Notes under the pieces: model-generated
The model's database searches: none
What the model was told of the DNA's origin: nothing
What the model saw: the letters and a program-made list of their open reading frames with translations, nothing else
Assembly: GCF_944380975.1 (NCBI RefSeq)
Contig: NZ_CALWJK010000019.1
Location: forward strand, 1-40,284
Source of the DNA: an uncultured Agathobaculum sp.
Lineage (GTDB): Bacteria; Bacillota; Clostridia; Oscillospirales; Butyricicoccaceae
DNA: 40,284 bases
Direction of reading: 5' to 3'
Program-made: the position numbers and the translations under genes
Shown here: piece by piece, positions 9,189 through 36,275 of the stretch
How positions within the stretch are numbered: the first letter of the stretch is position 1
Layout: each line of letters opens with the position of its first letter

Positions 9189-9986
9189 TCAGCCATCCAA
9201 TTCCTCATGTGCCTGCCGCACGATCTCGCGCAGGTCCGGCACGCTGTCCTCTCCCTGCTTCCATAAGTAGCCCAAAAACTCGATATTCCCTTCCGGCCCC
9301 TTGATGGGCGAGAACGTGATATCCTGCACGACGAATCCTGCCGTATGCGCATTTTCCACAAACTGCTCGAGTACTTCCAAATGGATCTCCGGCTCACGCA
9401 CCACGCCTTTTTTACCGACCTTGCCTTTTCCCGCTTCAAACTGCGGCTTAATCAGGCAGGCCACACGGCCATTTTCGGTCAGCAGACCGGAAACGACCGG
9501 CAGCACCAGCCGCAAGGAGATGAACGACACGTCAATCACGCACAGGCTTGGCGTTTCCTCGAGCATCTCCGGAGTCACATAGCGGATATTCGTACGCTCC
9601 ATGCACTTGACGCGCGGGTCCTGACGCAAACTCCACGCGAGCTGCCCATAGCCGACGTCGATCGAATAGACCTTGACCGCACCACGGCGCAGCAGGCAAT
9701 CGGTAAAACCGCCGGTGGACGCACCCACGTCCATCACGACCAGCCCCGCCGGGTCGATCGAAAAATAGTCGAGCGCCTTCTCGATTTTTTTGCCGCCGCG
9801 GGAGACAAAGGCATTTTCGTTGCCGCGCACTTCCAGCTCGGCGTTTTCATCCACCATGTCGCCCGCTTTGTCAGCTTTCTGCCCGGCAATATAGACAATG
9901 CCTTCCATAATCGCTGTCTTTGCGCGCTCCCGCGAAGGGCAAAGCCCTTTTTCAAACAGCAATACATCCAAACGTTTTTTAGCCAA
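9189..9986 (-). CDS. tlyA: TlyA family rRNA 2'-O-methyltransferase
   Basis: Members methylate ribose of cytidines in 16S and/or 23S rRNA; the older name is haemolysin A. The 265-residue protein has an N-terminal S4 domain (KKRLDVLLFEKGLCPSRERAK) and a FtsJ-like Rossmann methyltransferase domain with the SAM motif VVMDVGASTGGFTDCLL and later CVIDVSFISLR and IKPQFEAGKGKVGKKGVV. The best start is TTG at 9986: it overlaps the dxs stop (TTGGCTAA), has AAAGGA upstream and gives the standard family N-terminus. An upstream in-frame reading to 10046 lies within dxs and is rejected. Confidence 0.93.
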   Translation of the reverse strand: MAKKRLDVLLFEKGLCPSRERAKTAIMEGIVYIAGQKADKAGDMVDENAELEVRGNENAFVSRGGKKIEKALDYFSIDPAGLVVMDVGASTGGFTDCLLRRGAVKVYSIDVGYGQLAWSLRQDPRVKCMERTNIRYVTPEMLEETPSLCVIDVSFISLRLVLPVVSGLLTENGRVACLIKPQFEAGKGKVGKKGVVREPEIHLEVLEQFVENAHTAGFVVQDITFSPIKGPEGNIEFLGYLWKQGEDSVPDLREIVRQAHEELDG

Positions 9987-11850
9987 GGTCGTTTTCCTTT
10001 CCCTTTCGGTTTTTGATGACAAACGAAGCGATGCCTTCCGCATCAATGCCGCAATGACGATATACGTCGCTCACACCGCCGTGCGGCAGAAACCGGTCGC
10101 CGGTATTCAAGCAGTCCACCCGGCCACTCCGATGAGCAGCCACCCATTCGCCCAAACTGCCGCTTTCCACAACATCCTCGACGACTACACACCAACCGGA
10201 TAGCATAGTCTGCTGCTCACGGAAGGCATCCGTCAGCGCATCACTGATCTCGTTGACCTTATAAACCTGCGCGTGCACACCTTTTTTCTCCAAAATATCC
10301 GCTGCGGCAATCAGTTCATTGACAAGTGCGCCATGGGTCAGCAGCGTCACCTCGCGGCCTGTTGTTTCACGAACGCAAGCAATCGTCTCGCCCGCCGTAT
10401 CTTTTCGGAACGCACCCTCGCCGCCGCGCGGATAACGGATCGCAACCGGCCCGTTCTCATGGTATAACGCACGCGACATCATACTGCGCAGCTCGGCAAA
10501 ATTCGACGGACAGAATATCTTCACGCCCGGAATGGAACGCAAAAACGCCACATCCAGCACACCGTTGTGCGTTGCACCATCCGCGCCGACAATGCCTGCA
10601 CGGTCTACGCAGAACACGACATGCAGTCCTTCAATCGCCACATCATGCACCATTTGGTCATAGGCGCGCTGTAAAAAGGTCGAATACATGGCAACCACAG
10701 GCACCAGTCCCTGCGCCGCCATACCGGCCGCCATGGCCACCGCGTGCTCCTCCGCAATGCCGACGTCAAAAAAGCGATCAGGAAAACGAGACGCGAACCG
10801 CGTCAGCCCTGTGCCGGACGGCATCGCCGCTGTAATCGCGCAGATGCGCGCATCTTTTTCCGCGAAAGCACACAATTCACGCCCAAAACATGCAGAAAAA
10901 TCCTCTTTCTTGCCCGCCTTGAACGCACCGGTCAGCGGGTCAAACGGCGAAACGCCATGATATTTTTCCGGCTCACGCTCACTCGGCGCATAGCCGCGGC
11001 CCTTTTGCGTCATCACATGCAGCAAAACCGGCTTTTTGATCTTTTTGGCCTGCGAAAGCAGCTCGCATACGCTTTTCAGATCGTGCCCATCCACCGGACC
11101 AAGGTAGATAAAACCCATCTGCTCAAACAGAGAGGTCGGCAGCACCAGACGCTTGACCCGCGCCTTGACGTGTGAAATTGCACGAGAAACCCCGCCGCCG
11201 CCCGGAATCCGCGCCAAACGCTCCTTCACACGCGCCTTGGCATGCAGATAACTTGGACTGACGCGCAGACGCGACAAATGTCGGCTCAGCCCGCCGACAT
11301 TCTGTGCAATGGACATGTTGTTGTCGTTGAGCACCACCAGAAGCGGTTCGCCTGAGGTGCCGGCGTTGCTGAGCGCCTCATAAGCCATGCCGCCGGTCAG
11401 CGCGCCGTCCCCAATGACGGCAACCACATGATATTTCTGATTTTTCAGCGTGCGGGCATGCGCCATACCCAGCGCCACCGACACCGAACCAGAGGCATGC
11501 CCGGTCACGCAAGGGTCAGCCACACTCTCCTCCGGCTTCATAAAACCGGAAAGACCGCCGTATTGCCGCAATGTATCAAAGCGGTCACGGCGGCCGGTCA
11601 GGATCTTATGGACATAACTCTGGTGTCCTACATCGTAAATGATGCGATCACGCGAAGAGTCAAACTCCCGCTCCAGCGCGACAGCCAACTCTATCACACC
11701 CAAATTGGAGGCCAGATGACCGCCTGTGCGCGAAACCGAATCGACGATAAATTCGCGCAGCGAAGCGCACAGCACACCGAGCGTGTCATAAGACAATCCG
11801 CGCAGATCCGCGGGGCTTGTGATATTGTCCAGAATTCCGTATCTTTTCAT
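9979..11850 (-). CDS. dxs: 1-deoxy-D-xylulose-5-phosphate synthase
   Basis: First step of the MEP isoprenoid pathway: pyruvate plus glyceraldehyde 3-phosphate to DXP, using thiamine diphosphate. The 623-residue protein has the N-terminal ThDP domain with GGHLASNLGVIELAVAL, YDVGHQSYVHKILTGR and GDGALTGGMAYEALSNAG, a transketolase-like pyrimidine domain (FDVGIAEEHAVAMAAGMA) and a C-terminal domain. The ATG at 11850 gives MKRYGILDNI; further upstream readings lack a start and a ribosome site. It lies 28 nt after oapA and overlaps tlyA, so it belongs to the same transcript as ispA, which uses pathway products. Confidence 0.97.
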   Translation of the reverse strand: MKRYGILDNITSPADLRGLSYDTLGVLCASLREFIVDSVSRTGGHLASNLGVIELAVALEREFDSSRDRIIYDVGHQSYVHKILTGRRDRFDTLRQYGGLSGFMKPEESVADPCVTGHASGSVSVALGMAHARTLKNQKYHVVAVIGDGALTGGMAYEALSNAGTSGEPLLVVLNDNNMSIAQNVGGLSRHLSRLRVSPSYLHAKARVKERLARIPGGGGVSRAISHVKARVKRLVLPTSLFEQMGFIYLGPVDGHDLKSVCELLSQAKKIKKPVLLHVMTQKGRGYAPSEREPEKYHGVSPFDPLTGAFKAGKKEDFSACFGRELCAFAEKDARICAITAAMPSGTGLTRFASRFPDRFFDVGIAEEHAVAMAAGMAAQGLVPVVAMYSTFLQRAYDQMVHDVAIEGLHVVFCVDRAGIVGADGATHNGVLDVAFLRSIPGVKIFCPSNFAELRSMMSRALYHENGPVAIRYPRGGEGAFRKDTAGETIACVRETTGREVTLLTHGALVNELIAAADILEKKGVHAQVYKVNEISDALTDAFREQQTMLSGWCVVVEDVVESGSLGEWVAAHRSGRVDCLNTGDRFLPHGGVSDVYRHCGIDAEGIASFVIKNRKGKENDLG

Positions 11851-11878
11851 AACTTCATTCCCACCACGGAAGCTTTTT

Positions 11879-12469
11879 CTATCTCTTGCTATCCAGCGAA
11901 AACGGCAAAACCGACAACACCCGTCCGCAAATGGCCAGCACACGACTGCTGAACGCCATCGCCACACCTTTACCGGCAGCCTTGCCGCCAATGGTCAGTG
12001 CCGAGATCAGACCGGTGACCAGAAGAGAAACCAGCACCACCTGCACGCCGTTCATCCCGGCCGTAATATTGGTAACGATCAGCGCACCCGTTGCACCAGA
12101 AATGATGCCGCAGATATCACCGACCACGTCGTTGCAAATGCTCGACACCTTTTCCGCATTGCGGGTCATCCACACCGCTTCCTTTGCGCCGCGCACACGG
12201 TGCGCCGCCATGGAATGGAATTCCTTCTCGGTCGCGGAGGCGGCAGCAATGCCAATCATATCGAATAGGATGCCCAATGCGATAAAGAAAAACAGCACCA
12301 AGAAGGATAAAATTGTGCCCGCACTGTTCAGCGCCTCATTCGATATATAGCTCATCACAACCGAAAGCACAAAGCTGATCGGCATGATCGTTGCTACCCA
12401 TTTGGTGTTGATCAGCCGCGGCTTTTGCGGCGGCTGGTTCTTTTTTCTCGGTTTATCGGATGCTTCCAA
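11879..12469 (-). CDS. oapA: OLE-associated membrane protein OapA
   Basis: A 196-residue membrane protein directly downstream of the OLE RNA, the position and size of OapA, the protein that binds OLE RNA and tethers it to the membrane. Visible features: a basic N-terminus (residues 6-18, rich in Lys/Arg/Pro), hydrophobic segments at about 25-47, 52-77, 119-136 and 142-160, and a DVVGD (DxxxD) motif at 114-118. The central loop 80-110 holds basic and acidic residues and could contact RNA. Start is TTG at 12469 with AAGGAG 7 nt upstream. It has been annotated elsewhere as a CorB/CNNM-like magnesium transporter domain. Known partners link the complex to magnesium, cold and alcohol stress; that role is not shown here. 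Confidence 0.88.
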   Translation of the reverse strand: MEASDKPRKKNQPPQKPRLINTKWVATIMPISFVLSVVMSYISNEALNSAGTILSFLVLFFFIALGILFDMIGIAAASATEKEFHSMAAHRVRGAKEAVWMTRNAEKVSSICNDVVGDICGIISGATGALIVTNITAGMNGVQVVLVSLLVTGLISALTIGGKAAGKGVAMAFSSRVLAICGRVLSVLPFSLDSKR

Positions 12470-12519
12470 AAAAATACTCCTTATTATTAAAACCCTTCGG
12501 TTGTTCTATCCAAATAGAA

Positions 12520-13173
12520 GTGACGGCAGGCCGAGTTAATCTTGCGGCTTGAGGTTCGGTTGGCTTTCCCCGCGGACTGCCACGCGTCGCCGTCGTGGGG
12601 GTTTCCCATTAAAGTCCGTGCCGGGATGTTACCATCACCGGGACCGAATTGCCACTGAGTCCGCACTGCAATCCTCTGCCTGCCTCATTGCTGAATAGCC
12701 TAGGTGATTTCCACTGCAGGCAACACGATTCTTAGCCTCTTTTGCAGACATGGTTTCAACCGTCAATTCCCGCGGCGTTCCTGGCCGGGAAACCGCAGGC
12801 GGATACGATATCCACCATGGCCACGCAAGGCAGGCTACACTGTACACAGCGTTTTGGGTTCCGCACGGGCCTCCGGCCGCAATGGCCGGCGTATTCCGCG
12901 CAGTCCCCGCCGCACCGCAATACAGGTTTCATCCTGCACCGTAGGGCATCCGTCAATCGAAGCGATGCTATAGGTGCCCCACGCATACAGGTCTCCACGG
13001 CAGGCGGGTCGGTACTTCATGCCATTGAAGCGCGCCCGCAAGCCTTAACCTCCAGCATCCACCCCAAACTGGGCGTAAGAAGCAAACACCAGAGACTTCA
13101 TCGATATGCCCTTCTACGGATTTTTAGGCCCGTCCTGGGAATCGTATGCGCTGACTAGGATACTACGTCACTC
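12520..13173 (-). ncRNA. OLE: OLE RNA (ornate, large, extremophilic)
   Basis: About 650 nt without a credible gene on either strand lies between ispA and oapA. Size, position and neighbours (nusB, xseAB, ispA upstream; oapA, dxs, tlyA, argR, recN downstream) match the OLE RNA class. Local helices are visible, for example CCGGCC/GGCCGG (12873-12889, 5-nt loop) and CCACG/CGTGG (12580-12598). The 5' end is set by a promoter whose start should fall near 13173; the 3' end is a guess from where structured, GC-rich sequence gives way to the AT-rich oapA leader, and no U-tract terminator is seen. Known role: forms a membrane-associated ribonucleoprotein with OapA and other proteins. Ends are uncertain by about 30 nt. 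Confidence 0.9.
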
Positions 13174-13180
13174 ATTCTAT

Positions 13181-13209
13181 ATTTTATCATATAAATCCAT
13201 CGGATTCAA
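13181..13209 (-). promoter_or_regulatory. promoter just upstream of OLE RNA
   Basis: Minus strand: TTGAAT (13204-13209), 17 bp, TAAAAT (13181-13186), with TATGA preceding the -10 box (extended -10). It stands in the short gap after the ispA stop codon, so OLE and downstream genes could be made independently of the nusB promoter. Confidence 0.65.
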
Positions 13210-13232
13210 GAAAACCGCGCAAAAAACAGCAT

Positions 13233-14117
13233 TCAATTCGTCCGATCGGTCAGGCTGCGCGCCAATTCGACGAGAAATGCGCTCTCCGACTTGCCCGAAA
13301 CCGCCTGCACCGCTTCATCGGTCAGGCTGGCAACCAGTCTGCGGCACTCCTCCATACCAAGCAGCGACGGGAAGGTGGATTTTTCGCTCTTTTCGTCCTT
13401 ACCGACCGTTTTGCCGAGCGTCGCGGTATCGCCCTCGATGTCCAGCATATCGTCCCGGATCTGGAACGCAAGGCCGAGCTTGTCCCCATAGGTGCGCGCC
13501 ATGTCGAGCGTTGGCGCGTCGGTTTTGCCCGCCGCAACGCAGCCCAGTTCGCACGCCGCGCGCAGCAGACAGCCGGTCTTGAGGCTTTGCAGCAGGCGCA
13601 GCTCGTCGAGCGAAATCTTGCGGTGTTCCGCGCCCATGTCCAGCACCTGCCCGCCGATCATACCATTCATCCCCGCGGCCTGCCCCAGAATACGGATGCA
13701 AGCCAGCACAGTCTCGGCGGATACGCCCTCGGCCGAGGCCGCTGTCTCAAACGCTGCGGTCAGCAAACCGTCACCTGCAAGGACAGCAGTTGCCTCATCA
13801 AACGCCTTATGGCAGGTCGGCCGACCGCGGCGCAGGTCGTCGTTGTCCATGCACGGCAGGTCGTCATGGATGAGCGAATAGGTGTGGATCATCTCAAGCG
13901 CGCACGCAAACGGCAGCGCCTTTTGCGTGTCCCCACCGCACAGACGACAAAACGCCAGCACGATCACTGGACGCAGCCGCTTACCGCCTGCCATCGCGGA
14001 ATATTTTACGGCTTCAAAGATGCGGTCATACCCCTCGCCCGTCTCGCGGGACAGATATTTCTCCAGGGCAGGCTCAATGACTGCAATATCCGCTTTCAGC
14101 TGCTCTGCAAACGTCAT
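13233..14117 (-). CDS. ispA: polyprenyl (farnesyl) diphosphate synthase
   Basis: Condenses IPP with DMAPP/GPP to make farnesyl diphosphate. The 294-residue protein has the first aspartate-rich motif DDLPCMDND, the second DDMLD, and the family blocks GGKRLRPV and IHTYSLIHDD. The first motif has four residues between the Asp pair and the last Asp, as in bacterial FPP synthases. The ATG at 14117 overlaps the xseB stop (ATGA), so translation is coupled. With dxs in the same operon it links entry and chain-elongation steps of isoprenoid synthesis. A geranylgeranyl product is possible but less likely. Confidence 0.95.
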   Translation of the reverse strand: MTFAEQLKADIAVIEPALEKYLSRETGEGYDRIFEAVKYSAMAGGKRLRPVIVLAFCRLCGGDTQKALPFACALEMIHTYSLIHDDLPCMDNDDLRRGRPTCHKAFDEATAVLAGDGLLTAAFETAASAEGVSAETVLACIRILGQAAGMNGMIGGQVLDMGAEHRKISLDELRLLQSLKTGCLLRAACELGCVAAGKTDAPTLDMARTYGDKLGLAFQIRDDMLDIEGDTATLGKTVGKDEKSEKSTFPSLLGMEECRRLVASLTDEAVQAVSGKSESAFLVELARSLTDRTN

Positions 14118-17683: not shown

Positions 17684-18211
17684 TTACTCCGCTTCCACGA
17701 TCTTGACCTGTCCTGCGGTCATGCCGGTTTCACTGACCACGATATCCTTAATGACTGTCACATCGGTCGCCTGCAATCCGCCGTCCGGCGGCGCGACCAC
17801 GACGTTCACGCTGCTGTCGCCAATCATTACAACCGCATCCGCATAGCCTTTGGCGCGGATCAGGCTTTCGATATTTGCCTCGGCAACCGAATCATCCGCA
17901 AGCGCTGAGATCTGAGCCGCCGCTTCGTCCTTGGCCGCCTGATCGGCGTCCTCACTCTCGCTCAGCTCGCGAAGCGTGCTGACCGCCTCATCACGCGCCT
18001 GCTCGCGGGTCAGGCGCGAGGTGGCAAAATAATCCTCTCCCTCTGTTCCTGCTGTTTCTCCCGTATCCGACCCGGTCGTATCCGCATCGGTCTGCCCTGC
18101 CACCAGCAGCTCATCCGGCGCGTCGACATAGCTCCAGTTTAAATAAACCGCCGCGCAAAGCAGCAGCGCGATCACACCGTATACCGCGCCGCGTTTCTTG
18201 ATTTTTTTCAT
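17684..18211 (-). CDS. spoIIIAH: stage III sporulation protein AH
   Basis: Mother-cell half of the SpoIIIAH-SpoIIQ channel that links mother cell and forespore. The protein has 175 residues: a basic start (MKKIKKRG), one transmembrane segment (about 8-26), an acidic Thr/Gly/Asp linker, then a helical stretch and a C-terminal YscJ/FliF-like ring-building domain (NIESLIRAKGYADAVVMIGDSSVNVVV). The ATG at 18211 and an adjacent in-frame GTG at 18214 share the site AGGAGG. Last gene of the operon; no clear terminator precedes the next promoter. Confidence 0.93.
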   Translation of the reverse strand: MKKIKKRGAVYGVIALLLCAAVYLNWSYVDAPDELLVAGQTDADTTGSDTGETAGTEGEDYFATSRLTREQARDEAVSTLRELSESEDADQAAKDEAAAQISALADDSVAEANIESLIRAKGYADAVVMIGDSSVNVVVAPPDGGLQATDVTVIKDIVVSETGMTAGQVKIVEAE

Positions 18212-18245
18212 CACTGCTCGCCCTCCTGTATTTGGTTACTATGTT

Positions 18246-18791
18246 TTATGATGCATCGGACATTTTCAGAACCGTAACTTTGTCCGAACCGATGCCACAC
18301 ACCGTGCTGACCGCCTGCGTCACCGCCAGACGCACTTGCGCGTTGTCCGCGCCGTCGCACAAAACGACCGCGCCACGAAACGTCGGCAGCAGATTTTTGA
18401 CCGTGACGGGCTTTTCCCCGTAACTGCCGTCGCTGAGAATGGTCAAATCGCTCTCATAGCTTTGGCTGCTGTCCATGCCGGTCGTCTGGCGGGTGTTGAC
18501 TGCGTAAACTGCTTCGCCGCTCTGCTCGAGCGACAGCATCAGCTCGACCCGCCCTACGCCGTCCACCGCGGCCAACTTGTCACACAGCGCTTGTTCAAAT
18601 GCGGCAAGGTCGAATGAAGACGACTCGGCAGAGGTATCCGATGCCACCGCCTCCTCTTTTGCGCCATGCCCTCCCGAAGCCAGCAGCAGCACGCCCGCCA
18701 GCAGCACAATCAGCACCGCGCGATATTTGACCGCGAGCGGCACAACCTTTTGCTGCGCAGCCCCCAGCCATGCCTTCCATTGTTCTTTCAT
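18246..18791 (-). CDS. spoIIIAG: stage III sporulation protein AG
   Basis: Forms a large ring in the outer forespore membrane channel. The 181-residue protein has one transmembrane segment at about 25-42, then a ring-building domain (AAVDGVGRVELMLSLEQSGEAVYAV and, later, GAVVLCDGADNAQVRLAVTQAVSTVCGIGSDKVTVLKM), typical of the family. The ATG at 18791 overlaps the spoIIIAF stop (ATGA); a GTG twelve bases earlier lies on top of the ribosome site and is rejected. Confidence 0.94.
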   Translation of the reverse strand: MKEQWKAWLGAAQQKVVPLAVKYRAVLIVLLAGVLLLASGGHGAKEEAVASDTSAESSSFDLAAFEQALCDKLAAVDGVGRVELMLSLEQSGEAVYAVNTRQTTGMDSSQSYESDLTILSDGSYGEKPVTVKNLLPTFRGAVVLCDGADNAQVRLAVTQAVSTVCGIGSDKVTVLKMSDAS

Positions 18792-19270
18792 TGTGCCACC
18801 CACTCCTGTCTGTCCGCATCCACACCGCAGCCCTCAGTCACCAGCGTTTTCAGCTCATCCAACCGCGCCGCGTCCGTGCTTTGATAATACACCGTTACCT
18901 TTCCCACCTGTAAAATCCCGTTTTCGTCGTTCTCCATCGTCACATGTACCGAACAGTCAAAGCCTTTGGCCTGCGCGCTGCTTTCGAGCGCATCCGCAAT
19001 GCTGGCCGCGACCGTGCTCATGGTCGTCTGTGCATTTTGCTCCCGTATCGCATCCACGTCTACGCCTGCAAGCGCGCCGTCCTGTATGCCGTCCCAGCCG
19101 GTCAGACGCAATCCTGCCAGCGGCTGAAGCAGCGCCAGCAGCATCAGCAGCCCTGCTACCAGTTTGACGATCTCACGCAGCGCGCCGCCTTCCACCACCC
19201 GCAGCGCCACTGCGGACGCCACACCGGCCAGCGTGACGCGCAGCAGAATGGTATGAAACAATTCACTCAT
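18788..19270 (-). CDS. spoIIIAF: stage III sporulation protein AF
   Basis: A 160-residue protein with two closely spaced hydrophobic segments in the first 50 residues and a C-terminal extracytosolic ring-like domain (KGFDCSVHVTMENDENGILQVGKVTVYY). This is the family layout. The ATG at 19270 overlaps the spoIIIAE stop by 4 nt (ATGA). Works with AG and AH in the mother-cell membrane channel. Confidence 0.92.
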   Translation of the reverse strand: MSELFHTILLRVTLAGVASAVALRVVEGGALREIVKLVAGLLMLLALLQPLAGLRLTGWDGIQDGALAGVDVDAIREQNAQTTMSTVAASIADALESSAQAKGFDCSVHVTMENDENGILQVGKVTVYYQSTDAARLDELKTLVTEGCGVDADRQEWVAQ

Positions 19271-20361
19271 ATCGGCTTCACCATCGCAACCACATAAACC
19301 AGCTCCAAATACAGAATCAGACAGCAGGTGCTCAGCATACCGAGCAGCAGGCCAAATCCCGTGCTCACCCCCTCCAGCATCTGCCGTAGGCTGTTCGAGC
19401 ACAGCGGTGAAAGCACCGCCGCGCCTGCTTTATAGCACAGGTAGCTTGCGCCCACGCGCAGGAATGGAATGAGGCAAATCGCCGTCACACACAGCATGCC
19501 GAACACGCCAATCGAGCTGCGCAGCAGCGCTGCGCCTGAAAGCACCGTTTCAGTCGCGTCCGAAATCACGCCACCGACTACAGGCACTGCACCCGAAACC
19601 GCGAATTTCGCTGTTTTGAGCGCCATGCGGTCTACGCTGCCCGATACCCCGCCCGCAATAGTCAGATAAGCCGTGAATACGGTCAGGATCAGCTTGAGCG
19701 CACCCGAGGTCAAGCCCTTGATGCCGTCCGCAATGCCGTGCAGCATGCCGTTGCCGGTCGCCGCATCCACCGCAACCACCGCGAGATAGGCACAAGCCGC
19801 AGGCACCAGCAGCACGTTAATCAGCCGGATCACGATATCGAACACCACCATCGTCGCCACCTGCAAAGCGGTCGCCGTCGCTGCGTTCCCACCTGCCGAC
19901 AAAACGGTTGCCAGCACCGGCTGTAACGTGCCGGAAAACAGGCTGATCTCGGAAAGCGTTTCGCGGCACAGCGCGAGCACGCCAGTGAAATCCTGCAGCA
20001 GTACCGCCGCACATCCCAACGCACCCGCCATGTCGATCCATGCATCCGCCGCGCCGCCCGCCGCTGCGGAAAAGCCCCGTCCGACTGCGGTCAGCACCAC
20101 CACGATCGCCACCCGTATCAGTCCATTCAGCGCATTTTTAAGTGCGCTGCGGCTGTCCTCTGCCGTGTTCTCGAGCAGGCGGGCAAACGAAGCCCCCAAC
20201 TCGTCCGCCGTGTCCATGTCAATGCCGTCCAGATACGCGCGCTGCTCCCCCGGCACGGCCCCAAGCAGGGTATCTCCCTGCGCCGCGCCCTCTCCCTCTG
20301 CCGCAGCTGCCGCCGTCATGCATGCGAGCAGCACCAGCAGCACTGCAAACACCTTTTTCAT
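19267..20361 (-). CDS. spoIIIAE: stage III sporulation protein AE
   Basis: A polytopic membrane protein of the SpoIIIA complex. The 364-residue protein starts with a likely signal peptide (ends near AAAAAEG), then has an extracytosolic helical stretch and about seven to eight transmembrane segments. The conserved block FAVSGAVPVVGGVISDATETVLSG, here written in overlapping parts (FAVSGAVPVVGGVISD; ATETVLSGAALLRSS), is family-specific. The ATG at 20361 was chosen because it begins the signal peptide; a longer reading back to 20475 lies within spoIIIAD. The gene follows spoIIIAD by 13 nt. Confidence 0.94.
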   Translation of the reverse strand: MKKVFAVLLVLLACMTAAAAAEGEGAAQGDTLLGAVPGEQRAYLDGIDMDTADELGASFARLLENTAEDSRSALKNALNGLIRVAIVVVLTAVGRGFSAAAGGAADAWIDMAGALGCAAVLLQDFTGVLALCRETLSEISLFSGTLQPVLATVLSAGGNAATATALQVATMVVFDIVIRLINVLLVPAACAYLAVVAVDAATGNGMLHGIADGIKGLTSGALKLILTVFTAYLTIAGGVSGSVDRMALKTAKFAVSGAVPVVGGVISDATETVLSGAALLRSSIGVFGMLCVTAICLIPFLRVGASYLCYKAGAAVLSPLCSNSLRQMLEGVSTGFGLLLGMLSTCCLILYLELVYVVAMVKPI

Positions 20362-20374
20362 TGTCCGTTCCCTT

Positions 20375-20764
20375 TCATATCGTCCAGTCTGCCACCAGCA
20401 CAAGCACCTGCTCGAGCAGCGGCAGGCACATGGAAAGCGCCAGTACTGCGCCCATGATTTCCAGCTTTGCCGCAAGCGCAGACTGCCCGCTGTCCCGGCA
20501 CAATGCGCTCATGATACGCACCACGACCGCCACGCCGACCGTCTTGAGCACCGGCAAGTACAGGCTCTGCGTGATGCCGCCCTGCGCAAGCAGACCGGAA
20601 AACCGCTGCATGGTACCGCCCACCAGCGCGAAAGCCCGCAGCAGGATGAGGACACCCGCCGTCAGCGTCAGCAGGAACGCGATCGCAGGCGCATCCTTTT
20701 TGAGCGTCATCGACAGCACCAACACCAGCAGCACCAGCCCGCAGGCCGCGATCAGGCTGTTCAA
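20375..20764 (-). CDS. spoIIIAD: stage III sporulation protein AD
   Basis: A small membrane protein of 129 residues with about four hydrophobic segments; the block YLPVLKTVGVAVVVRIMSALCRDSGQSALAAK is recognisable in parts (LPVLKTVGVA; CRDSGQSALAAKLE). The start is TTG at 20764, overlapping the spoIIIAC stop (TTGA) with no clear ribosome site, so translation presumably depends on termination of spoIIIAC. Confidence 0.93.
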   Translation of the reverse strand: MNSLIAACGLVLLVLVLSMTLKKDAPAIAFLLTLTAGVLILLRAFALVGGTMQRFSGLLAQGGITQSLYLPVLKTVGVAVVVRIMSALCRDSGQSALAAKLEIMGAVLALSMCLPLLEQVLVLVADWTI

Positions 20765-22490: not shown

Positions 22491-22777
22491 AAATATTGCA
22501 CAAAGCGATGACAGAGGAAAGTAGTTGTTCCAAGTGCGGCTTTCAGGGAGTGTCCGGCATGACTGGAAACGGACGCAGACGCCGGCACAATGAAGTTCCC
22601 TCTTGAGCTGCGGCGCTGAAAAGCAGTTTCCAGTAGGCGCCGACGGATTTCCTCCGTTACAGGGATAGGATATTTTCGTATCCGAAAAAAGTGCGGCATC
22701 ATTTGTTATGCCGAATGTGGGTGGTACCGCGGAACCGTTTGTCTTTCGTCCCTCTTTGTGGATGAAAGGCTTTTTTT
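22491..22777 (+). promoter_or_regulatory. T-box leader, probably tRNA-Phe responsive
   Basis: A T-box riboswitch that reads uncharged tRNA. Seen in order: the Stem I base with GATGACAGAGGAAAGTAG (22507-22524), the Stem I distal arm (GTG and CCGGC pairing with GCCGGCAC, 22549-22588), the specifier region TGAAGTTCCC (22591-22600), a stem III hairpin (ACGGA/TCCGT near 22642-22656), the T-box sequence GGGTGGTACCGCGG (22719-22732) and a terminator. The codon TTC at 22596-22598, at the expected offset between GAA and the lower Stem I strand, indicates Phe; GTT in the next register would be Val, which does not fit the operon. Uncharged tRNA-Phe should favour the antiterminator and raise expression. 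Confidence 0.93.
22741..22777 (+). terminator. regulated terminator of the T-box leader
   Basis: An 11-bp stem including G-T pairs (22741-22751 with 22760-22770) followed by seven T (22771-22777). It competes with the antiterminator formed around the T-box sequence. Confidence 0.9.
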
Positions 22778-22835: not shown

Positions 22836-23852
22836 ATGATTATCATTATGAAGCAGGGCGCGACGCGCGAACATGTTGAGGAGCTGTCCCGCCACATTGA
22901 ACGCTGGAACGTCAAGGCCAACCCGATTTACGGTGCAGGCACGATCGTCATTGGTCTGGTCGGCGACACGGGCGCAGTCGATAAGGATGCGCTGCTGCGC
23001 GACCCGCAGGTTGAGAACATTTTGAAGGTGCAGGAGCCGTTCAAGCTGGCAAACCGCAAGTTCCATCCGGACAACACCGAGGTCGAGATCGCGCCGGGCG
23101 TTGTCGTTGGCGGCAAGAAGCTGGTTGTCATGGCAGGCCCCTGCTCGGTCGAGAGCGAGGAGCAGATCATCGACGTTGCCAAGCATGTGCAGGCGGACGG
23201 CGCAACCGTGCTGCGCGGCGGTGCATGGAAGCCGCGTTCCTCCCCGTACTCGTTCCAGGGTCTCAAGGCCGAGGGACTTGAGCTGCTGCACAAGGCGCAT
23301 GAGGAAACCGGCCTGCCGGTCGTTACCGAGATCACGAATCCTGCGCACATCGACCTGTTCATGGATAAGTGCGATTGCTTCCAGGTCGGCGCACGTAACA
23401 TGCAGAACTTCGAGCTGCTCAAGGAACTCGGTCAAACCGACAAGCCGATTCTCTTGAAGCGCGGCTTTGCCAACACAATGGAAGAATTCCTGATGAGCGC
23501 TGAGTATATCATGGCAGGCGGCAACGAAAAGGTCATCCTGTGCGAGCGCGGCATCCGCACCTATGAAAAGTACACCCGCAACACGCTGGACATTTCGGCA
23601 GTGCCGGTGCTCAAGCGCATGAGCCATCTGCCGGTCGTCGTGGACCCGTCTCACGCAGGCGGCATCTACTGGATGGTCGAGCCGCTGGCAAAGGCCGCGG
23701 TCGCCGCAGGTGCGGACGGCCTGATGGTCGAGGTGCACAACGATCCTGCGCACGCCCTGTCGGACGGCGCACAGTCGCTGACCTATGATTCTTTCCACGA
23801 GACCATGCAGAGTCTGCGTGCAGTGGCGCAGGCTGTCGGTCGCGAGATTTGA
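22836..23852 (+). CDS. aroF: 3-deoxy-7-phosphoheptulonate synthase (type I beta)
   Basis: First step of the shikimate pathway: PEP plus erythrose 4-phosphate to DAHP. The 338-residue protein has an N-terminal ferredoxin-like regulatory domain (about 1-70) and the TIM-barrel catalytic domain with MAGPCSVES, RGGAWKPRSSPYSFQG, QVGARNMQNFELL, LLKRGFANTMEEF, ILCERGIRTYEKYTRNTLD and VVDPSHAGG. The layout is that of the Thermotoga/Bacillus-type enzyme, where the N-terminal domain mediates feedback inhibition by Phe or Tyr. The ATG at 22836 has AAAGGAGAG upstream. First gene after the T-box. Confidence 0.96.
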   Translation: MIIIMKQGATREHVEELSRHIERWNVKANPIYGAGTIVIGLVGDTGAVDKDALLRDPQVENILKVQEPFKLANRKFHPDNTEVEIAPGVVVGGKKLVVMAGPCSVESEEQIIDVAKHVQADGATVLRGGAWKPRSSPYSFQGLKAEGLELLHKAHEETGLPVVTEITNPAHIDLFMDKCDCFQVGARNMQNFELLKELGQTDKPILLKRGFANTMEEFLMSAEYIMAGGNEKVILCERGIRTYEKYTRNTLDISAVPVLKRMSHLPVVVDPSHAGGIYWMVEPLAKAAVAAGADGLMVEVHNDPAHALSDGAQSLTYDSFHETMQSLRAVAQAVGREI

Positions 23853-35932: not shown

Positions 35933-36265
35933 CGTGACTGGTGCTGACGGTCGCGTGCCTGACGGCATGAGGAAAGTCCGGGCTGCACAGGGCAAGGATA
36001 ACGGATAACGTCCGCCGGGGGCGACCCCAGGAATAGTGCAACAGAGATATACCGCCGGTCTCCCGACCGGTAAGGGTGGAAAGGCGAGGTAAGAGCTCAC
36101 CGCGCCCCGTGGTGACACGGGGGGCCTGTAAACTCTATCCGCAGCAACGCCGACTGGGACTATGGTTTGCCCGACCGTCCCGACTGGCGGCTTGAGGCGC
36201 GCGGCAACGCGCGTCCCAGATAGATGACCGTCCACGACAGAACCCGGCTTACGCACCAGTCATAC
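35933..36265 (+). ncRNA. rnpB: RNase P RNA, bacterial class A
   Basis: The catalytic RNA of RNase P, which trims the 5' leader of tRNA precursors. Universal core elements are present in order: GAGGAAAGTCCGGGCT (about 35970), AGTGCAACAGAGA, GTAAGAGCTCACCG, GTAAACTCTATCC and, near the 3' end, AGATAGATGACCGTCC and ACAGAACCCGGCTTA. The ends are set by P1 pairing of TGACTGGTGC (35935-35944) with GCACCAGTCA (36253-36262). The length of about 330 nt and the P6/P15-18 style layout suggest type A rather than the Bacillus type B. Confidence 0.97.
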
Positions 36266-36275
36266 CACAAAAATC

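Follow-up and report, generated by a model that had tools for sequence, protein, structure and literature searches.

A full-length OLE RNA gene beside oapA in an Agathobaculum-like gut bacterium, with a possible loss of OapB in a sibling genus

The question raised by this locus is what occupies the stretch of about 650 nucleotides between ispA and a small membrane-protein gene in an uncultured Agathobaculum species. The window analysed was a 40,284-nucleotide stretch of contig NZ_CALWJK010000019.1, in which a first-pass annotation had placed an OLE RNA at 12520-13173. The check proposed for that assignment, a covariance-model search with Infernal and Rfam, gave a significant match to OLE RNA (RF01071) at 12504-13187 on the minus strand, with a score of 455.4 bits, an E-value of 1.1e-130 and coverage of model positions 1-616 of 616. 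The gathering score of RF01071 is 50 bits, which the window copy exceeds over the full model, and a search of the whole genome revealed this single copy. The match is decisive for the identity of the RNA; the proposed extent was nearly right and is replaced by the Rfam limits.

No conserved reading frame was found between the start of oapA (12469) and the end of ispA (13233) among six ORFs tested, these being frames of at least 60 aa lying wholly inside the interval; a seventh at 13106-13582 (plus strand), which overlaps ispA, was left out. Of 48 relatives, only 4 to 11 keep any given one of the six open, which bears out the description of the stretch as gene-free. Chance ORFs of up to 138 aa could suggest a protein-coding region, or an intergenic sequence unrelated to OLE. 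Coding was rejected on the poor conservation of these frames, and with an Rfam E-value of 1e-130 either version has a vanishingly small probability.

The genes on the minus strand are ordered nusB, TsaD-like, xseA, xseB, ispA, ole, oapA, dxs, tlyA, nadK and argR, followed by a recN-like gene, and the ispA-ole-oapA order that had been cited as typical of OLE is seen in the window. The ispA gene (13233-14117, minus strand) encodes a farnesyl diphosphate synthase (NF045485, 335.5 bits) and dxs (9979-11991, minus strand) a 1-deoxyxylulose-5-phosphate synthase (TIGR00204, 674.9 bits), the listed start of which, overlapping oapA, is probably too far upstream. Directly downstream of OLE, oapA (11879-12469, minus strand) encodes the OLE-associated membrane protein A of 196 aa with a TTG start and is conserved. 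This gene has been described as the one most often found immediately downstream of ole, with isoprenoid synthesis among the nearby functions (PMC12265935). Upstream of the ispA-ole run, the stage III sporulation genes spoIIIAH (17684-18214) and spoIIIAE (19267-20475) lie within 17684-20475 (minus strand). The window also contains a T-box leader at 22499-22756 (plus strand, 110.6 bits) with a DAHP synthase gene downstream at 22836-23852, and a class A RNase P RNA at 35935-36266 (plus strand, 269.6 bits).

The earlier proposal that the RNA has its own promoter holds as a sequence pattern. A sigma-A type pattern, TTGAAT-17-TAAAAT with TG before the -10 element, is positioned just upstream at 13181-13209 (minus strand), which probably places the 5' end of the OLE RNA near 13174 and means that the Rfam model begins inside the -10 element. 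A scan of 12350-13350 gave two promoter-like sites against 0.6 expected, the second, at 12512-12483, being weaker placed. Among genus members with OLE, a script located the pattern 43-44 nt before a conserved GCAGUAU/GUAGUAU in 17 of 23; it is additionally visible by eye in G023, was not found at the corresponding place in G004 and G005, and the upstream sequences of G006, G011 and G020 are too short for the check. Across the family the script matched 38 of 47 sequences, with G006 and G011 too short and outside the 47, and gave no match in nine (G004, G005, G020, G045, G049, G052, G055, G082 and G086), three of them (G020, G049 and G055) truncated. The positions returned for G023 and G054 are wrong, the anchor having failed, and the matches in G043, G044, G047 and G085 sit 71-74 nt upstream compared to 40-49 nt elsewhere.

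The secondary structure was examined in an alignment of 49 OLE RNAs out of the 50 in the family, the window copy included; that of G046, in which OLE is in three pieces, was left out. Over the 156 modelled pairs, 88.7% of the cells pair, and two-sided changes occur at 82 pairs (706 cells). In controls with the partner slid by 1-3 bases, pairing did not exceed 43.8%, and two-sided changes were limited to 45 pairs and 162 cells. Two hundred shuffles gave at most 80.9% pairing, with two-sided changes at 61 pairs and in 277 cells, a margin that is inflated by the kinship of the genomes, which the slid controls retain. Because related genomes are not independent, the margins over the controls are overstated; the covariation check that had been proposed nevertheless gave the predicted structure more two-sided changes than either control.

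Scanning the unpaired positions yielded 95 candidate pairs. Eight of these stack: six join OLE 43-48 to 458-463 in the P3 stem and two extend the enlarged stem described below. The 5' strand of P3 (13140-13152, minus strand), unpaired in the Rfam model, forms covarying pairs with the 3' strand (12717-12730, minus strand). The window copy has a stem of 13 bp, and all 47 copies that could be tested have one of 11-14 bp, G049 and G055 being cut at the 5' strand and left out. Across 28 distinct strand pairs, the mean energy is -15.0 kcal/mol for a strand with its own partner compared to -7.2 kcal/mol with the partners of other genomes. P3 is the proposed membrane-spanning stem of OLE RNA (PMC12265935).

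Other helices of the published architecture were also located, all on the minus strand. The hairpin at 13115-13134, putatively named P4 by our mapping, has an A-rich loop with CCUAAAAA in 49 of 49 copies, and this loop has a described role in the OLE dimer (PMC12286853, PMC12265935). The region at 13050-13099, mapped as putative P4a-P5 from the Rfam alignment, is strongly conserved in the family; in published work P4a-P5 is the OapA and OapC side of the RNA. The P6 stem at 13000-13045, placed by the Rfam alignment and family conservation, is the published bS21 site and L5/L6 contact, and the perfect CCUCCU anti-Shine-Dalgarno mimic that the available text reports for H. halodurans is absent from the P6 region of the window. 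An enlarged stem at 12840-12925, P8 by our mapping, has 61 nt compared to 4 in the Rfam consensus, and the segment that holds it ranges from 60 to 115 nt across 23 genus copies. The tip of P9 (12776-12798) carries a self-complementary GGCC loop in 47 of 49 copies and GCGC in G054 and G055 (L132, L133). Both sequences are self-complementary, which fits a P9-P9 contact, and the P9 palindromes named in PMC12286853 are GGCC, GAUC and AGCU. As features of the sequence alone, the dimer-contact sequences of L4 (A-rich) and L9 (palindromic) are thus present in the window copy. The P12.2-P13 hairpin at 12571-12621 has the usual form and is the probable OapB site, an assignment made here from text descriptions.

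OLE RNA was found in 50 of the 87 genomes of the window's family, and a permissive re-search of the 37 OLE-negative genomes gave nothing at E <= 1, which is not proof of absence. OLE and OapA agreed in 82 of the 87 genomes (49 with both, 33 with neither), one having OLE only and four OapA only. Among the exceptions G082, G048 and G081 are at contig edges and G040 is 65% complete, while in G042 (L112), 99% complete, OapA is present and OLE was not detected. Most of the OapA relatives found in named genomes come from Agathobaculum and Butyricicoccus records, with 97% identity for the nearest, and judged by these relatives the host belongs to the Agathobaculum/Butyricicoccus group. Fourteen of 30 named loci were checked with Rfam and OLE lay directly before the oapA relative in all 14. 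Of practical use is that named strains of the family carry OLE: Agathobaculum desmolans ATCC 43058, A. butyriciproducens DSM 100391, Butyricicoccus faecihominis DFI.6.109 and Intestinibacillus massiliensis Marseille-P3216T.

A simple scan of 12350-13350 gave no minus-strand terminator, and this, together with the location of OLE within the ispA-oapA-dxs run, would be consistent with a long structured cis leader for oapA and the isoprenoid genes, an RNA without a role of its own. This is disfavoured by sibling genomes in which ole and oapA are apart and both have been kept: in G037 they are about 20 kb apart on one contig, and in G041 OLE lies mid-contig with other genes downstream and oapA is on another contig. 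A role as leader only is therefore quite unlikely. The separation was read from loci L106, L107, L108, L109, L110, L111, L113 and L114 (G037, G041, G038 and G033); the splits in G017, G029, G046 and G054 carry little weight because ole is at or near a contig edge. In G033, G035 and G038 ole and oapA were also on different contigs, the ole of G033 being at a contig end, that of G035 on a 3.2-kb contig, and the oapA of G038 near a contig start.

The gene lying between map and infA was recognised as oapB from the protein of G001, which matches the solved OapB (7k9b) with an E-value of 1.5e-4. It was present in 41 of the 87 family genomes, comprising 35 of the 50 with OLE and 6 of the 37 without, and in 18 of the 25 genus genomes. 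Neither OapB nor infA was found in the draft genome of the window, so the draft probably lacks the operon in which oapB normally resides. A separate OapC-like (YbxF) gene was not found in that draft by an L7Ae profile search; its sole L7Ae match lies, by reading of the locus, between ylxR- and infB-like genes and looks like a gene of the nusA-infB run. Two L7Ae matches, counted by profile, occur in 15 of the 25 genus genomes. The failure to detect OapB and OapC in the draft is the sole support for a decayed, non-functional OLE copy that retains sequence similarity alone. The full-length match, conserved promoter pattern and intact oapA all point the other way, as do the preserved dimer loops and P3 and the two-sided changes across the family, and decay is very improbable.

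The best explanation as a whole, with a probability of about 0.88, is that an Agathobaculum-like gut bacterium carries its OLE RNA gene at this locus, the product of which would form a membrane-held dimeric scaffold RNP. OLE is a membrane-bound RNP with OapA, OapB, OapC and bS21 that dimerises through the 5' domain of the RNA and helps H. halodurans under stress from cold, ethanol and Mg2+ and on poor carbon sources (PMC9723947, PMC12054373, PMC12286853, PMC11332333, PMC12265935). By analogy, a membrane-anchored RNP scaffold in stress and Mg2+ would be the likeliest function, and the window copy keeps those sequence features that were tested for the published role. As in other species, the RNA would be transcribed from its own promoter plus read-through from upstream genes, would dimerise through the P4, P5/P6 and P9 loops and would be held at the membrane by OapA, and the scaffold may help the cell to cope with stress and Mg2+.

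The alignment also revealed that six OLE RNAs of the sibling genus g3 (G031, G032, G033, G035, G038 and G041) are set apart from the other 43. The 43 have 353 columns with a conservation of 95% or more; five of these columns are changed in all six g3 copies, and four of the five fall within the hairpin OLE 567-617, the probable OapB site, which has 25 of the 353 conserved columns. The corresponding hypergeometric value of 9e-5 is a guide only, as the hairpin limits were set after the columns were seen. The four nucleotides are invariant (43/43) outside the g3 clade. In a tree of the same OLE RNAs the six copies form one clade with a support of 0.99, so the hairpin change may be a single event. 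The changed hairpin still folds in the three copies folded, the usual bulge being lost in G031 and G033 and one kept in G032. No OapB was detected in these six genomes, where map and infA are separated by gaps of 54-144 nt, too short for oapB; the gap length is the better evidence, as the OapB pattern test missed G026, which was found by another search. Within the same genus G037 has kept both OapB and the usual hairpin, and G034 has the usual hairpin with infA not found in the draft. Seven more genomes (G000, G009, G011, G017, G019, G021 and G086) have the usual hairpin and no OapB match, which speaks against a strict rule connecting OapB with the hairpin; in G000 and G019 infA was not found either.

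Together these observations give an even chance that full-length OLE RNA in the sibling genus dropped OapB, with oapB gone from its map-infA place and four otherwise invariant nucleotides altered jointly in the hairpin that probably binds OapB, whereas that hairpin, the remaining RNA and OapA were retained. If true, P13 would keep its shape without the protein and OapB would be a folding helper outside the working core. Loss of the OapB site has already been published for variant-1 OLE RNAs, in clades largely without OapB (PMC11332333); new in detail are the hairpin change in the six OLE RNAs of g3 and the failure to detect oapB in their genomes. The family thus contains genomes with OLE, OapA and OapB, genomes with OLE and OapA in which OapB was not detected, and genomes with OapB alone, which makes the need for OapB comparable between close relatives.

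Seven of the g3 gaps without oapB (L075, L137, L139, L140, L142, L144 and L146) were aligned and contain a conserved non-coding stretch of approximately 130-145 nt with an invariant GTAGACTT. Four of these loci gave no Rfam match at E <= 1, and folding of four sequences was no better than that of shuffles.

By its sequence the window copy is a full-length member of the known family and ordinary for its group of gut bacteria. The first-pass annotation had regarded a gut clostridium as extending OLE beyond the extremophiles; the organism fits, and the extension is not new. The 2024 survey gives 2,822 OLE matches in Bacillota and, in its available text, describes gut clades with OLE (PMC11332333). 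Since GTDB species were surveyed there and gut hosts are described, a new host record carries little weight. In the literature available for search, OLE RNA was not mentioned alongside Butyricicoccus or Agathobaculum.

When OapA was compared with the MpfA/CNNM Mg2+ exporters, the window protein gave a weak CNNM match of 21.3 bits, below the cut-off of 28.4, and no match to a CBS or CorC domain in a profile search, whereas the MpfA-type protein of the same genome has CNNM, CBS and CorC_HlyC. The presence of this one MpfA-type gene is against the family trend, the mean being 0.54 copies per genome with OLE compared to 1.92 without among the 87 genomes (matches over 70 bits; weaker fragments, OapA and contig-edge fragments of G059 and G079 among them, were excluded). 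Fewer MpfA-type genes with OLE is the direction published for Bacillota (PMC11332333), and the anticorrelation is not independent support because the OLE-lacking genera may be one lineage.

Among the OLE classes described in the available text of PMC11332333, variants 1 and 2 (TANB77 and RF39 gut clades) resemble the window copy in having gut hosts. Variant 1 has a shortened P7-P9 and often lacks the OapB site and variant 2 is without P7 and P8, while the match of the window copy extends over the whole model and its P13 has the usual form. The closer likeness is to the full-length class, with which it shares the 616 model positions, OapA downstream, the P3-P9 domain, the P13 hairpin and the P9 GGCC. 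It differs from this class in its length of 684 nt compared to approximately 600 nt, mostly caused by the enlarged stem (P8 by our mapping), and in its host, which is a gut anaerobe and not an extremophile.
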